From: Hydrogenimonas urashimensis
GTDB lineage: Bacteria; Campylobacterota; Campylobacteria; Campylobacterales; Hydrogenimonadaceae
DNA length: 64,000 nt
Assembly (NCBI RefSeq): GCF_016593255.1
Contig: NZ_AP023212.1
Span: forward strand, 62,001-126,000
Direction of reading: 5' to 3'
In this document: positions 5,360 to 11,163 of the stretch, piece by piece
How positions within the stretch are numbered: position 1 is the stretch's first letter
How the letters are laid out: every line of letters begins with the position of its first letter
Program-made: the position numbers and the translations under genes
Notes under the pieces: model-generated
Databases searched by the model: none
Told to the model about the DNA's origin: nothing
Seen by the model: the letters and a program-made list of their open reading frames with translations, nothing else

Positions 5360-5463
5360 AATAATCCCTCTTCTACACTTTAATCAATAAAATCAATAAT
5401 ATAAACTGATTTTAATTTGTTATTCTTTATACTGCTTTCATCTTGCATCCAAGGAATCTACAG

Positions 5464-6213
5464 ATGAAAAAAGGCGTTTCTTTTCTTTTTGCCACGGCAA
5501 TTGTCTCTTCCGTTGTCATGGCGGATCATCATGCTATCCACTGGGGCTACAGCGGCCACGGCGGGCCGGAACAGTGGGGACAGCTCTCTGACGATTACAA
5601 AATGTGCATGATCGGTAAAAACCAGTCTCCCATCGACATCCGAACCGATACTGCCTACAAAACCGAACTGCCGGCGATCCGGTTCGATTACCACACTGCG
5701 ACCGAAGATGTGGTGGACAACGGCCATACCGAGCAGGTCGACATCGAGGCCGGCAGCGGCATCACGATCGACGGCATCACATTCGAGTTGAAGCAGTTTC
5801 ACTTCCATACACCCAGCGAAAACCGCATCGACGGAAGATCCTTCCCGCTGGAGGCTCACTTCGTCCATGCCGATGCACACGGCAACCTGGCGGTCGTGGC
5901 GGTGATGTTCCAATACGGCAAAGCCAATCCGATTCTGGCCAAAATCTGGAGCAAAATGCCCAAACATGCGGGCAGAAAACACCATTTGAGTATGACGGCA
6001 GACGATGTCAAACATCTGCTTCCCAAAAACAGAGCCTACTACCGTTTCAACGGCTCTTTGACCACGCCGCCCTGCTCCGAGGGGGTCCGTTGGCTTATTC
6101 TCAAGCATCCGGTTACTGTCTCCAAAGCCCAGGTCCGGGAGTTCGCCAACATCATGGGAGATGCCAACAACCGTCCCGTTCAACCTCTCAATGCTCGTAT
6201 TATTCTGAAGTAG
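5464..6213 (+). CDS. Alpha-class carbonic anhydrase, periplasmic
   Basis: This 249-residue enzyme interconverts CO2 and bicarbonate. The start is the ATG at 5464, preceded by AAGGAATC and followed by a typical signal peptide ending near VMADHH; an upstream in-frame TTG lacks a ribosome site. Zinc ligands are visible as the two histidines of QFHFHTPSE and the third in LEAHFVH. The C-terminal NGSLTTPPCSEGVRW block is the alpha-CA signature. Export implies CO2/bicarbonate supply or pH control in the periplasm, fitting a carbon-fixing lifestyle. A small Cys4 protein follows 3 nt downstream. Confidence 0.93.
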   Translation: MKKGVSFLFATAIVSSVVMADHHAIHWGYSGHGGPEQWGQLSDDYKMCMIGKNQSPIDIRTDTAYKTELPAIRFDYHTATEDVVDNGHTEQVDIEAGSGITIDGITFELKQFHFHTPSENRIDGRSFPLEAHFVHADAHGNLAVVAVMFQYGKANPILAKIWSKMPKHAGRKHHLSMTADDVKHLLPKNRAYYRFNGSLTTPPCSEGVRWLILKHPVTVSKAQVREFANIMGDANNRPVQPLNARIILK

Positions 6214-6528: not shown

Positions 6529-8094
6529 TTATAGAAATTCTTTACGCAGCGCCTCTTTGTCGATGCTTCGACTGTGGAGTGATTTTCTCGGCATGTTGGG
6601 ATTGAAAACGATCTGAGCCGGCAGCATATAGTTGGGGAGATGTTTTTTCAGTTCGAAAAGGATCTCGTTTTTCGGCAGCTCTCTTTTGCCCCCGTAGACC
6701 ATGACGATCTCCTCCTCGATTTCCTCGTTTGGTATCGAAAAAACGACGCATTCGGTGATTTCGGGTATGTTCGCATAGACGACACTTTCGATCTCGTAGG
6801 GGCTGACACGGTAGCCCTGGGTCTTGATCATATCGTCCTTGCGGCAGACGAAATAGATGTATCCCTCTTCGTCTGCGTAGACATAGTCCCCGCTGGCCAC
6901 GACGATTTCGTCGGTAAGCCGGCCTTCGGGTTCGAGGACCTTGTCGAGTATTCTGATACTTTTGAAACGTTTTTCGGTCTCTTCGGGTGCGTTCCAGTAC
7001 CCCTTGTAGATACAGGCCCCGCGATGGATCAGTTCGCCGACTTCGCGGGGCTTGCACGCCTCTCCCTGATCGTTGATGATGTAGAGTTCCACGTCGGGCA
7101 CCGCCTTGCCGATGGAGTTGGGGCGTATATGGATCTGTGCCGGATCGAGGTAGGCGGAACGAAACGCCTCGCTCAGGCCGTGCATCGAGTAGAACCTGGC
7201 ATCGGGGAAGTGGGTCGTGATGTTTTTGATCATGAGCGGAGTGATGTTGCCGCCCGATGAAGTGATGGTTCGCAGTTTTTTAAAATGCTCGGGCTTCGGA
7301 ATGCGGTGGGGGTCTTCGTCGAACATCTGGGTGATGTGGATAGGCATCAGCGGCAGGATTGTCACGCCGTCGTCGATGAGATGGGTGAAAAAATCGCTCG
7401 GAAGGACAAATTTGTGAATCGCGAGTGTCGCCCGATTGAAAAGCGCCGTGAATATCTGATTCAGACCGTAGTCCAGGTTGAAAGAGAGGATGCCGCTGAT
7501 GACATCGTCGGCACGGATATCCAGATACTTCGATACGATGGCGGCTCCGTCGAAAAAGGCACGGTGGTTGATGACGATTCCCTTGGGATTGCCCGTCGAA
7601 CTGAAAGTGTAGGTGATGGCGGCGTTGTCGTGTCCCTTGATCTCGCAGCTGTGCTCGCCCGTGTAGCATTTGTAGATCTCTTCGAAAGAGACATCGCTGG
7701 CATCTGTGGGAGTGTAGGAGACAATCTTTCCCGAAAAACCGGTCGCTTTGACGGTTTCGATTTTTTGGGTATCGGTAATGATGCACACAATACCGCAATC
7801 CTCGATGATATGTTTGACCTGTTCCGGTTTGAGCAGCCGGGTAATCGGCACGAAGATATGTTCAGTGGACATGATAGCCAAAATAGCGATTGCCTGGTCG
7901 CAGCTCTTGTTGGAGTAGATGCCGATACGGCTACCTCTGGGCAGCGACAGGGTCGTAAGATAGTGTGCCACCTGGTTGACACGTTCCAGAAGCTGGGCAT
8001 AGGTATAGTGCTCGCTTCCCAGCGTGATGGCTGTTTTTTCGGGATGGTAGCGGGCGGCGTTTTCGAGCAGTTCGCGAACGGTATTGACGGTCAT
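6529..8094 (-). CDS. AMP-forming acyl/aminoacyl ligase of the glutamate mutase operon
   Basis: This 521-residue adenylating enzyme belongs to the ANL superfamily. The P-loop A3 motif is TFSSTGNPKG (residues 163-172), the hinge region is GYRVSPYEIESVV, and FNLDYGLNQIF (D208 within it) sits where amino-acid-activating members place a substrate-binding acid. At the extreme C-terminus the usual GK-IDRxAL catalytic-lysine motif reads RS-IDKEAL, so the A10 lysine appears replaced by serine (about S510). It is the last gene of glmS-glmE-glmL-ligase, overlapping glmL by ATGA. By analogy with natural-product loci, it may activate 3-methylaspartate. No carrier protein is nearby, so that is inference. 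Confidence 0.8.
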   Translation of the reverse strand: MTVNTVRELLENAARYHPEKTAITLGSEHYTYAQLLERVNQVAHYLTTLSLPRGSRIGIYSNKSCDQAIAILAIMSTEHIFVPITRLLKPEQVKHIIEDCGIVCIITDTQKIETVKATGFSGKIVSYTPTDASDVSFEEIYKCYTGEHSCEIKGHDNAAITYTFSSTGNPKGIVINHRAFFDGAAIVSKYLDIRADDVISGILSFNLDYGLNQIFTALFNRATLAIHKFVLPSDFFTHLIDDGVTILPLMPIHITQMFDEDPHRIPKPEHFKKLRTITSSGGNITPLMIKNITTHFPDARFYSMHGLSEAFRSAYLDPAQIHIRPNSIGKAVPDVELYIINDQGEACKPREVGELIHRGACIYKGYWNAPEETEKRFKSIRILDKVLEPEGRLTDEIVVASGDYVYADEEGYIYFVCRKDDMIKTQGYRVSPYEIESVVYANIPEITECVVFSIPNEEIEEEIVMVYGGKRELPKNEILFELKKHLPNYMLPAQIVFNPNMPRKSLHSRSIDKEALRKEFL

Positions 8095-9314
8095 GGTAAC
8101 TCCTTGGTGGCCTCGTTGTTTTCCAAAATCGCCTGCATTCCGTAGGTCCAGATTTCGTAATTTCTGTCCAGAACGATTTCGGGTATCTGATGGAAATGCA
8201 GCAGTTTTTTGTAGAAGAAGCGGATAATCGTTTCCGCATCCTCCTTTTCCAGTACTTTCGTGATTCCGCCTGTGAGAACGATATTGTTGAGGTTTTCGAG
8301 TTTCAGTTCCACATACTCGCTGTGGTGTCTGGATACTTTGTAAAGAACGAGGAATATCGCCAGCTGCATCAGAACCTTCGTCGCCGCTTCGCTCTCTTCT
8401 TCGAGAACGTTTTCGGTGACATTGAGGTGGTTGAGCAGCTCATAGACGAATTCGTTCTGACGGGCCGTATGCACCAGGCTTTCTCGGGATTTGTAGACAC
8501 CCAGCTTTTTGAATACAAGGCGGTCGTAGCCTCCTTCGCCGGTGATGTTGTCGCTTACAAGGTCACGGCTGTAGTGGATGTCGGTCGTAGCACCGCCGAT
8601 GTCGATGACGATAAAAGGATCGGTTACGTCGAGACGGCGACTGATGAATGGAAGCGCCCGGTTGACGACGTAGGGGGTGGAGAAAATCTGGTTGGCCGTG
8701 ATTTCGTAAAGCTGTTTGATATCTTCCTTGCCCATGATGTCGGCCTGGTAGAGGTCGGTCAGGTAGGTTTTGAGCGCACGTTCGTTGATCTTCAGTTTTT
8801 CGGTGATGATGTTTTCAAGCACGACCAGCCGCCGGATGTGTCCGCTCAGGAAATTCCGTTCGTCGGCGCTGCCGACGTAGACGATATTCTGGAAGGTGCA
8901 CTTTTCCAGAAAACCGATGAGTTTCTCGTCGAATATTCCTCCCACACCGTCGATGCCTCCTACGATGATGACCACATCGATCGTCTCCACAGGAGGTGTG
9001 GCCCTTTCGATTTCGTGATAGAGCACCGTATCGATGATATTGATACCCGAGTTGAAGGCGATATTGATCGCGTATTTGAGGCTGAAAGAGTTGCTGATGC
9101 CAATAATCAGAGTGCTCAATCCGCCGTTGGCGGAGCTGCAGATCTGGATCTCTTCCGGCCTGTATTTGGCGACAAGATCACCGCATTTGTCCATCAGATC
9201 CTCGAAAATCGGGCGGTTGAAATCGCGGAACCAGTGGCGGATAGTTCCGTTTTCCGCCACTTTGAAATAGGTACTGCCGATATCGAATAGAAGTTTTTTT
9301 CTGACGGCGCTCAT
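8091..9314 (-). CDS. glmL: GlmL/MutL-type protein, glutamate mutase reactivation factor
   Basis: This 407-residue protein of the ASKHA ATPase fold resembles GlmL/MutL, associated with glutamate mutase and thought to reactivate it or exchange damaged B12. The phosphate-1 motif FDIGSTYFK is at residues 10-18 and the phosphate-2 motif VIDIGGATTD lies in the middle. The frame is open far upstream, but the start is placed at the ATG overlapping the glmE stop (ATGA), because similarity begins there and the upstream part is only glmE read in another frame. Its own stop overlaps the ligase start the same way. Confidence 0.85.
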   Translation of the reverse strand: MSAVRKKLLFDIGSTYFKVAENGTIRHWFRDFNRPIFEDLMDKCGDLVAKYRPEEIQICSSANGGLSTLIIGISNSFSLKYAINIAFNSGINIIDTVLYHEIERATPPVETIDVVIIVGGIDGVGGIFDEKLIGFLEKCTFQNIVYVGSADERNFLSGHIRRLVVLENIITEKLKINERALKTYLTDLYQADIMGKEDIKQLYEITANQIFSTPYVVNRALPFISRRLDVTDPFIVIDIGGATTDIHYSRDLVSDNITGEGGYDRLVFKKLGVYKSRESLVHTARQNEFVYELLNHLNVTENVLEEESEAATKVLMQLAIFLVLYKVSRHHSEYVELKLENLNNIVLTGGITKVLEKEDAETIIRFFYKKLLHFHQIPEIVLDRNYEIWTYGMQAILENNEATKELP

Positions 9315-10672
9315 TGCATGATTCCTATGTCTTTGATGATTTTGTCGACGACCCTTTCGCCCTCTTTGAGCCTGATTTTCGATCTTTCGAAGGCGAAGCT
9401 TCTGTCGGATATCGGCAGTTTTCCCCGTTCTAGAATGCGAATGTTCTCCTGGGGGTCGCGAATCGTTATGACTTCGTTGGCGTTGATGACATGGGGAGAG
9501 AAGGGGATCTCGATATGTCCCTTTTTGATGGCGTTGAAAACTTTGCGCCAGAGGGTGTCGGCGCTGTCGTTCAAAACCGCCTCCATGATTTCGTTGACCA
9601 TGTTGGTGAGGTTTTCCTCCTCCTCTTCGTCGCTGACATTGGGCAGTCCCTTGAGCATGCCGAGGGTGTACTTGACACTGGCGACGGCCCGGGCGTTGGC
9701 CTCTTTGGTCGGAATGCCGAAGGCTTCGTTGCGTGTCTTGGTGATGATCTTGTCGGCACCCACCATGGCGGCGATGACGGTCGAGGCGGTGATCAGGGCG
9801 TCGGAGAACTCCTTGTTGTAGGGAAACGCCCCCATCCACTGGTGGTAAACGAGATGGATATCCGCGTCGTGATGGCCGAACATATCGGCGTAGCGGCGGG
9901 AAAGTTTCCTGATCACGTTGGCGGTGACCACATCCTGAATCATCGATCCGGTCTGGGAGAAACTGACGGAGAAAGATTTGACGCCCTCCTCGAGTGAAAG
10001 CAGCATTTCGATGATCTGGATGACGATGACAATGGCCGGCGGCTGAAGCGTGGCGCTCAGGGGACCGAAAGATTCCCGGTTGATCGGTTCGTTGAGCTTG
10101 GAGTAGAGGGCGCATACTTTCTCGACATATTTCCAGTAGAGAAAAGCTTTGTCCAGCGGAAAATTTTTGGAGTAGGGGAGCAGGTAGGTGATGGGTCCCC
10201 CTTCGATCTCGAAAATGCCCGAAGCGAGCGCCATCTCCACAAGGAGCCTGGCATCCGGTGTGCCGTGACGGAGGCTGACGGGGGTGTCGAAATGGGTGAT
10301 CATTTTCCGGGTCGTGCGGTAGCCGTGGTTGATGAGCGGATAGCCGTTGAGCATGTCCACGTCGTTCTCTTCACTCAGCGCTAGCATCTTCTTGGCGGTG
10401 GCGTAATCGTTGAGACGTGTGTTGGAATCGATCGTCAGGGGCAGGACGTCGACACCCGCCTCCTTGAACTCTTCGTAGAGACGAAACACCTTTTCATAGG
10501 TCGGAAAGCCGCCGCGGGGCTGTACCTGCATCGCGTCGGAGGTTTTGAAACGATGGGAGATGAAGAGCTCTTTGCTGGCGTTTTTCACGAACTCTTCGAT
10601 CTCGTCGAAATCGAAATGGTCGACATACTCGTTTCTCGTGATGATTTCCCGTTCGCGCCTGAAAAGGCTCAT
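9311..10672 (-). CDS. glmE: Glutamate mutase (methylaspartate mutase), E subunit
   Basis: This 453-residue large subunit of adenosylcobalamin-dependent glutamate mutase interconverts L-glutamate and (2S,3S)-3-methylaspartate by carbon-skeleton rearrangement. The sequence reads colinearly with GlmE barrels, including LTIDSNTRLNDY, NGYPLINHGYR, SLRHGTPDARLL, the SFSVSFSQTGSMIQD block and the VYHQWMGAFP segment. Its length is close to the approximately 480 residues of clostridial GlmE. It overlaps glmS upstream and glmL downstream by ATGA, implying translational coupling of a 1:1 complex. Glutamate mutase is uncommon in Campylobacterota as far as I know. Confidence 0.9.
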   Translation of the reverse strand: MSLFRREREIITRNEYVDHFDFDEIEEFVKNASKELFISHRFKTSDAMQVQPRGGFPTYEKVFRLYEEFKEAGVDVLPLTIDSNTRLNDYATAKKMLALSEENDVDMLNGYPLINHGYRTTRKMITHFDTPVSLRHGTPDARLLVEMALASGIFEIEGGPITYLLPYSKNFPLDKAFLYWKYVEKVCALYSKLNEPINRESFGPLSATLQPPAIVIVIQIIEMLLSLEEGVKSFSVSFSQTGSMIQDVVTANVIRKLSRRYADMFGHHDADIHLVYHQWMGAFPYNKEFSDALITASTVIAAMVGADKIITKTRNEAFGIPTKEANARAVASVKYTLGMLKGLPNVSDEEEEENLTNMVNEIMEAVLNDSADTLWRKVFNAIKKGHIEIPFSPHVINANEVITIRDPQENIRILERGKLPISDRSFAFERSKIRLKEGERVVDKIIKDIGIMQ

Positions 10673-11076
10673 GCGCTCTCCTTCAGAAAAACTTCGAGCC
10701 GGTCGAGACCCTCGTTGAGATCGACCTGGTGAAAAACGAGGTCGAAGCCGTAGCTTTTGAATTTGGGCACGAGCGCATCTGGGTCCATCTCTCCGACTCC
10801 CAGGTTGCCGCCGATCATGAAGACGACGCGTTTTCTGAAGCGGTAGCTCTCTTTAAGAATCTGCAGATCCCGGCACCACCCCTCCGCCTCGCCGTTGAGG
10901 GACGAGATGAGCAGGACGTCGGCGTCGGTCTCGATGACGGCATCGAGAAACTCTTCGAGATAGGTGTTGACCCCCAGGTTGAAGACGGTAAAACCGCGTT
11001 CTTTGAGAGAGATTTCGATCAATCGGTTGGCGACGACATGGATGTCGTTTCCGACCACTCCTGTTACAACTTTCAT
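10669..11076 (-). CDS. glmS: Glutamate mutase, S subunit (B12-binding)
   Basis: This 135-residue small subunit carries the cobalamin-binding Rossmann-like domain. GVVGNDIHVVANRL corresponds to the DxHxxG motif that supplies the lower-axial histidine; here the glycine is alanine. LLISSLNGEAEGW and FMIGGNLGVG match the SxL and GG motifs that hold the nucleotide tail. It is the first gene of the operon, 87 bp from the divergent RraA-like gene. Its ribosome site is weak (GAAGAAGAATCC). Note that the name glmS is also used for the unrelated glucosamine-6-phosphate synthase. Confidence 0.9.
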   Translation of the reverse strand: MKVVTGVVGNDIHVVANRLIEISLKERGFTVFNLGVNTYLEEFLDAVIETDADVLLISSLNGEAEGWCRDLQILKESYRFRKRVVFMIGGNLGVGEMDPDALVPKFKSYGFDLVFHQVDLNEGLDRLEVFLKESA

Positions 11077-11109
11077 CCGGATTCTTCTTCACTTGGAAAT
11101 ATGATCGAT

Positions 11110-11143
11110 ATTTTATCCAATCGGAGATGTTTTTAAGTATAAT
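11110..11143. promoter_or_regulatory. Divergent promoters between glmS and the RraA-like gene
   Basis: On the plus strand, TATAAT (11138-11143) lies 20 nt before the 11164 start, with AAAGGTGG as ribosome site. On the minus strand, TAAAAT (complement of 11110-11115) lies about 33 nt before glmS. The two signals sit within 35 bp, so one regulator could control both. Confidence 0.45.
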
Positions 11144-11163
11144 TTTCCAAAAAAGGTGGAAAG

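Follow-up and report, generated by a model that had tools for sequence, protein, structure and literature searches.

A five-gene glutamate mutase module of Hydrogenimonas urashimensis, shared across phyla, with a predicted 3-methylaspartate product and an ANL ligase altered at its adenylation site

What is a glutamate mutase for when its genes are joined end to end to that of an AMP-forming ligase? The question is raised by a 64,000-nucleotide stretch of the Hydrogenimonas urashimensis genome (assembly GCF_016593255.1, contig NZ_AP023212.1, positions 62,001 to 126,000), here called the window, which belongs to one complete 2.30 Mb chromosome and encodes the mutase subunits GlmS and GlmE, the GlmL-like protein and a ligase of the ANL superfamily. 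We found these four genes, together with a fifth that encodes an RraA-family protein, to be one real unit that is accessory and occurs across phyla. The reading towards which we lean is that the five genes serve to make 3-methylaspartate and then to handle it, and that the adenylation half of the ANL enzyme has been altered.

An earlier note, made from the sequence alone, had described four minus-strand genes each joined to the next by an ATGA overlap, and direct inspection verified both the reading frames and the three exact overlaps (Table 1). Presence and absence of the genes were then compared in 60 genomes, comprising that of the window, its genus and its order, while their surroundings were compared in 80 loci from named genomes drawn from the ligase alignment, 57 of which show all four genes. 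GlmE and the ligase are carried by the same 10 of the 60 genomes, which span six families, and by none of the remaining 50. Every complete locus of the other genomes (57/57, from Campylobacterota, Gammaproteobacteria and Rhodothermales) has the order S-E-L-ligase on one strand; the outcome that the earlier note had named beforehand as telling against its proposal, that the four genes are rarely together in relatives, did not occur. Campylobacterota carriers in the alignment are Hydrogenimonas, to which the named carriers closest to the window genome belong, Sulfurovum, Nitratifractor, Sulfurospirillum, Sulfurimonas and Arcobacter, and those beyond the phylum are Colwellia, Thalassotalea, Vibrio, Reinekea, Neptuniibacter, Granulosicoccaceae, a Rhodothermales bin and a Desulfobulbaceae bin. 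It is the adjacency of the four genes that is conserved and not the exact ATGA overlap, which was seen at 42/57 S-E, 51/66 E-L and 6/77 L-ligase junctions, the last having a short gap or a different overlap in most loci. The ligase loci without an adjacent mutase that were inspected (L052 and L059, with L053 resembling L052) have unrelated surrounding genes.

The earlier note was right that the four genes form a unit and overlooked a further member, the RraA-family gene that is divergent from glmS. This gene is found upstream of glmS in 47 of the 57 complete loci; when only those that offer at least 600 bases of room are counted, the figure is 45 of 50. Among the 60 genomes, a copy with at least 52% identity is present in exactly the 10 module carriers, in some of which it lies apart from the mutase genes, whereas the other 50 yielded only two weaker homologues (39% and 22%). 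Were phylogeny ignored, a 10/10 co-occurrence of this kind would arise by chance with a probability of about 1e-11, a value that kinship makes less extreme. The spacer between the two genes is presumed to be a shared promoter region. No other neighbour recurs in the 80 loci beyond the five genes, save for lineage-bound synteny and an AspC-like gene in some gammaproteobacterial loci.

Table 1. Features of the module and of its ligase, in window coordinates
Feature	Position	Strand	Basis or remark
glmS-like (MutS), B12-binding small subunit, 135 aa	10669..11076	-	reading frame and profile
glmE, glutamate (methylaspartate) mutase catalytic subunit, 453 aa	9311..10672	-	reading frame and profile
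glmL-like, MutL-family ASKHA ATPase, 407 aa, divergent; mutase accessory protein/reactivase by family	8091..9314	-	
ANL-superfamily (AMP-binding) ligase, VinN-type pocket, 521 aa	6529..8094	-	profile
Divergent RraA-family gene (class II pyruvate aldolase/oxaloacetate decarboxylase fold), 166 aa	11164..11664	+	
ATGA overlap glmS/glmE	10669..10672	-	read from sequence
ATGA overlap glmE/glmL	9311..9314	-	read from sequence
ATGA overlap glmL/ligase	8091..8094	-	read from sequence
87-bp divergent intergenic region, glmS to RraA-family gene	11077..11163		conserved divergent arrangement in 47 loci
Ligase D208-Y209 (VinN Asp230-Phe231), amino-group recognition	7468..7473	-	invariant in 81
Ligase S280 (VinN Ser299)	7255..7257	-	invariant in 81
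Ligase R312 (VinN Arg331), alpha-carboxylate recognition	7159..7161	-	invariant in 81
Ligase motif A3 (P-loop), residues 162-172, YTFSSTGNPKG	7579..7611	-	TSG(S/T)TG to (S/T)F(G/A/S)xxG in 78/81
Ligase residue 510, Ser at the A10 adenylation-lysine position	6565..6567	-	Lys in 34/79 homologues

The mutase subunits are recognisable, if divergent, members of their families. GlmS scored 152 bits with the B12-binding/PRK02261 methylaspartate mutase S profile (cut-off 110) and 92 bits with TIGR01501, below the cut-off of 136. GlmE matched Met_asp_mut_E at 1.9e-115 and GlmL matched MutL at 4.3e-27, and both are regarded as divergent because they fall below the equivalog cut-offs, with 364 against 390 for TIGR01503 and 72 against 475 for NF040745, respectively. 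All 12 GlmE counterparts of what we take to be the active-site positions of the Clostridium cochlearium mutase (R66, R100, N123, R149, H150, E171, Y177, Y181, H291, K322, K326 and E330) are identical, and they are invariant over about 60 homologues. The D-x-H cobalamin motif of GlmS is also intact (GNDIHVVA), with the glycine that follows it replaced by alanine. Because these residues of GlmE and GlmS are conserved, it is strongly predicted that the two subunits, serviced by GlmL and with adenosylcobalamin, convert L-glutamate into (2S,3S)-3-methylaspartate. The clostridial operon (glmS-mutL-glmE plus methylaspartase) has the same mutase subunits, GlmL accessory protein and active-site residues, but differs from the module in gene order (S-E-L in the latter), in its methylaspartase and in its lack of the ligase and RraA-family genes, the module proteins GlmE and GlmL also being below the equivalog cut-offs.

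The substrate pocket of the ligase resembles that of VinN, a 3-methylaspartate adenylation enzyme. The protein has an AMP-binding profile match of 9e-62, and when its pocket segment alone was compared with the PDB the best match was VinN of the vicenistatin pathway (3WV4/3WVN, 61 bits), the next protein scoring 44. An AlphaFold2 model (mean pLDDT, the predicted local distance difference test, of 84; 38 homologues) had VinN with bound 3-methylaspartate (3wv5) as its top fold match (Z 46.7, 2.1 A, 378 residues), with a small lead over the next different protein (Z 45.4). Since many ANL folds score close behind VinN, the fold match alone is weak evidence, and the pocket residues are the stronger sign of a predicted likeness: VinN Asp230, Phe231, Ser299 and Arg331 correspond to D208, Y209, S280 and R312 of the ligase, all of them invariant in 81 sequences. 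In VinN, Asp230 binds the amino group and Ser299 and Arg331 the alpha-carboxylate, so that the beta-carboxyl is presented (PMC7756342, PMC12186527, PMC11253843). The module ligase would hold 3-methylaspartate in the same fashion, with its amino group on D208 and its alpha-carboxylate on S280 and R312. That the ligase is instead an ordinary acyl-CoA ligase, in the operon by chance, is scarcely credible, since the general ANL profiles that it matches are set against a strict linkage to the mutase across phyla and an invariant amino-acid pocket of the D208/S280/R312 type that the ordinary ANL paralogues of the same genome, acyl-CoA ligases included, do not have.

Several observations weigh against the view that the module makes and then handles 3-methylaspartate. 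The first of them concern catalysis. The A10 lysine, a highly conserved residue that contacts the alpha-phosphate during adenylation (PMC8388817), is missing from 45 of 79 ligases, including that of the window, and on the tree this position changes at least eight times; the Sulfurospirillum orthologue L073 is one that keeps the lysine. The P-loop follows the pattern (S/T)F(G/A/S)xxGxPKG, in which Phe takes the place of the Ser that follows the first hydroxyl residue (78 of 81 sequences) and the next Ser/Thr is frequently Leu. This loop is altered rather than destroyed, as the first Thr/Ser, the glycines and the Pro, which are important in other ligases, are mostly kept. Taken together, the absent lysine and altered loop make ATP-dependent adenylation uncertain, and it may be weak or lost. 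Specificity is a second difficulty. The closest named family, TIGR03098 (ligase_PEP_1, exosortase A), has about 33% identity to the module ligases and shares with them the FDYGLSQ and GLTEAFRST pocket motifs, and its true members likewise have the D-Y and R, plus S or T; the pocket therefore signals an Asp-like amino acid, and it is the gene linkage that singles out 3-methylaspartate. TIGR03098 ligases have no known mutase partner, whereas the module ligases are tied to glutamate mutase. Finally, there is no dedicated carrier in the window genome, whose two PP-binding matches, one of them strong and one in a pyruvate-dehydrogenase-like operon, are both unlinked, nor does the module encode a pyridoxal phosphate (PLP) decarboxylase, no search for such enzymes having been made in the rest of the genome.

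Both the TIGR03098 sisters and the ANL paralogues of the window genome keep the canonical loop and the GK lysine, the TIGR03098 members L131 and L132 having TSGSTGKPKG and NGK at these places. The window ligase, at 466 bits, falls short of the TIGR03098 cut-off of 592, as do orthologues from 17 other genomes (420 to 452 bits); true members score 726 and 742. In the module ligases K424, G427 and R429 of motif A8, which belong to the second half-reaction (thiolation), are invariant. The earlier note had proposed that the ligase adenylates 3-methylaspartate in a make-and-activate module; of this, a VinN-like pocket of the Asp type stands, while the lost lysine and altered P-loop leave adenylation in doubt and the pocket does not by itself single out 3-methylaspartate. 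Making and recognising are supported, and activating is uncertain. A more radical version, in which the ligase gave up ordinary ATP-dependent adenylation and performs amino-acid-binding acyl transfer or other activation chemistry on mutase-supplied 3-methylaspartate, in an undescribed B12-dependent pathway that also needs the RraA-family aldolase/decarboxylase, strikes us as unlikely. In a separate observation, the most eroded P-loops were those of L057 and L104 of the G053/G038 family (YATHSFAKG and YAPHSFAKG), L057 retaining GK at A10.

In the make-and-handle reading, then, 3-methylaspartate held in the ligase pocket would have its side-chain (beta) carboxyl presented for activation, and we infer that it would pass to an acceptor, a thiol or an amine, whose gene lies outside the module. 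The first half-reaction, adenylation, would be altered, with the acyl-transfer residues of the second retained. The RraA-family protein may, speculatively, act on a linked keto acid such as 3-methyloxaloacetate formed by a cellular aminotransferase. This protein passes the PRK09372 and TIGR01935 cut-offs (family PF03737) and has the class II pyruvate aldolase motif as E-X20-R-D, the R-D being conserved across 49 homologues and the leading acid being E or D, so that the D-X20-R-D motif is present with a conservative change. It is likely a metal-dependent pyruvate-enolate aldolase/decarboxylase, for which 3-methyloxaloacetate would be a reasonable substrate, and it resembles the RraA/HMG-CHA aldolase family in motif and in the cut-offs passed while differing in being tied to mutase genes. 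Regulation of RNase E is an unlikely role, because the gene is absent from related genomes that lack the module.

This partner is also an argument for a route to 2-oxobutyrate, in which transamination of 3-methylaspartate would give 3-methyloxaloacetate and the RraA-family enzyme would decarboxylate the latter, with release of CO2, to 2-oxobutyrate as a source of isoleucine or propionyl units, the ANL protein having a secondary or regulatory role. The RraA-family gene is an obligate partner, studied members of its fold also decarboxylate oxaloacetate (PMC5065237), and formation of 2-ketobutyrate through a glutamate mutase pathway has been reported (PMC7476758). In addition, an AspC/TyrB-like aminotransferase gene is directly convergent with the RraA-family gene in seven to eight gammaproteobacterial loci of several families (L074, L091, L100, L101, L105, L106 and L107), which would fit a supply of 3-methyloxaloacetate, although this neighbour may be a long-standing housekeeping gene at the site of insertion. 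However, threonine deaminase was identified in 57 of the 60 genomes, including all ten module carriers, and the module is therefore not required for isoleucine; no citramalate synthase match was over the cut-off. An essential purpose in isoleucine or 2-oxobutyrate supply was rejected on this ground, and the route would, moreover, leave the always-present ligase unexplained. We consider it improbable as an account of the module.

We give still less credence to a thiotemplate of the VinN style, by which 3-methylaspartate would be adenylated and loaded onto AcpP or another carrier, and its decarboxylation would then yield a beta-amino acyl unit destined for a natural product or an envelope amide, the carrier and decarboxylase being encoded elsewhere. 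Its attraction lies in the VinN-like pocket and in the free carrier that is the acceptor of the studied VinN-type enzymes BolO and AfcQ (PMC7756342, PMC12186527). Against it, no gene for a carrier, decarboxylase, polyketide synthase (PKS) or nonribosomal peptide synthetase recurs near the module in the 80 loci, the window genome offers only the two PP-binding matches mentioned above, and the A10 Lys that is called invariant for AfcQ is not kept in the module ligases. The earlier note had seen no carrier, decarboxylase or methylaspartase, and this was borne out by the genome searches with PP-binding and PF07476 and by the comparison of neighbours. As an observation in its own right, a pyruvate-dehydrogenase-like operon at G000:C1:611000-617000 (L130 5000-10500) has a stand-alone 81-residue carrier protein and also encodes an AhpD-like protein, an E2-like catalytic protein and an acetyl-CoA-synthetase-like ligase.

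Glutamate mutase is the entry step of the methylaspartate cycle in haloarchaea and of a fermentation in clostridia, and by analogy an anaplerotic use could be imagined in which 3-methylaspartate gives mesaconate and the ligase acts on the latter to form mesaconyl-CoA. Such a use is very improbable here, as no methylaspartate ammonia-lyase was found (PF07476 gave only partial, enolase-type matches of fewer than 110 positions, in carriers and non-carriers alike) and the pocket of the ligase is shaped to receive an amino group.

Among known systems, the reading of a module that makes and handles 3-methylaspartate places it nearest to VinN with VinH/VinI. Both link a glutamate mutase to a stand-alone ANL enzyme whose pocket is of the Asp230/Ser299/Arg331 type and whose shortened loop region is without a gap. 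Unlike the VinN cluster, the module is without a carrier, PLP decarboxylase or PKS and has GlmL and the RraA-family partner, its ligases do not keep the A10 Lys and P-loop, and its hosts are Campylobacterota and Gammaproteobacteria. To our knowledge, a glutamate mutase with a dedicated activating enzyme was previously known only from natural-product loci such as that of vicenistatin, and no description or pathway joining the module genes was found in the open-licence papers searched. As judged from its sequences, the module is a cross-phylum relation of the glutamate mutase/VinN pairing, in which the RraA-family partner and the altered adenylation site are new. It represents a compact accessory module, without a visible product, in marine and vent bacteria of several phyla, and it offers a specific pathway candidate for orphan glutamate mutases. 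The RraA-family protein gains a functional setting outside RNA decay, and it is unusual within the ANL superfamily for the adenylation lysine to be lost where the substrate pocket is strictly kept.

In the window, an alpha-type carbonic anhydrase gene (5443-6213), on the opposite strand and downstream of the module, is kept only inside the genus. A four-subunit ferredoxin oxidoreductase operon (24-2940), by appearance of the 2-oxoglutarate type, is found in Hydrogenimonas genomes close to that end of the module where the ligase gene lies, and such an operon also adjoins the unlinked ligase of G027, a genome from another family (L129 4229-7151).

With respect to the corrinoid supply of the mutase, the window genome encodes a corrinoid adenosyltransferase of the CobA type and yielded no cobyric acid synthase, a combination that is consistent with corrinoid salvage. 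PduO-type adenosyltransferase was found in none of the 60 genomes. We considered the ligase as a substitute for a missing corrinoid adenosyltransferase and dropped the idea, since module-free genomes show the same gap. CobQ was identified in 10 of the 60 genomes (G010, G020, G021, G027, G032, G036, G038, G039, G050 and G053), and these have no recognised PduO/EutT or CobA adenosyltransferase, while the genomes with CobA are without CobQ. This perfect anti-correlation hints that corrinoid-making Campylobacterota may possess an adenosyltransferase of a kind not yet recognised.

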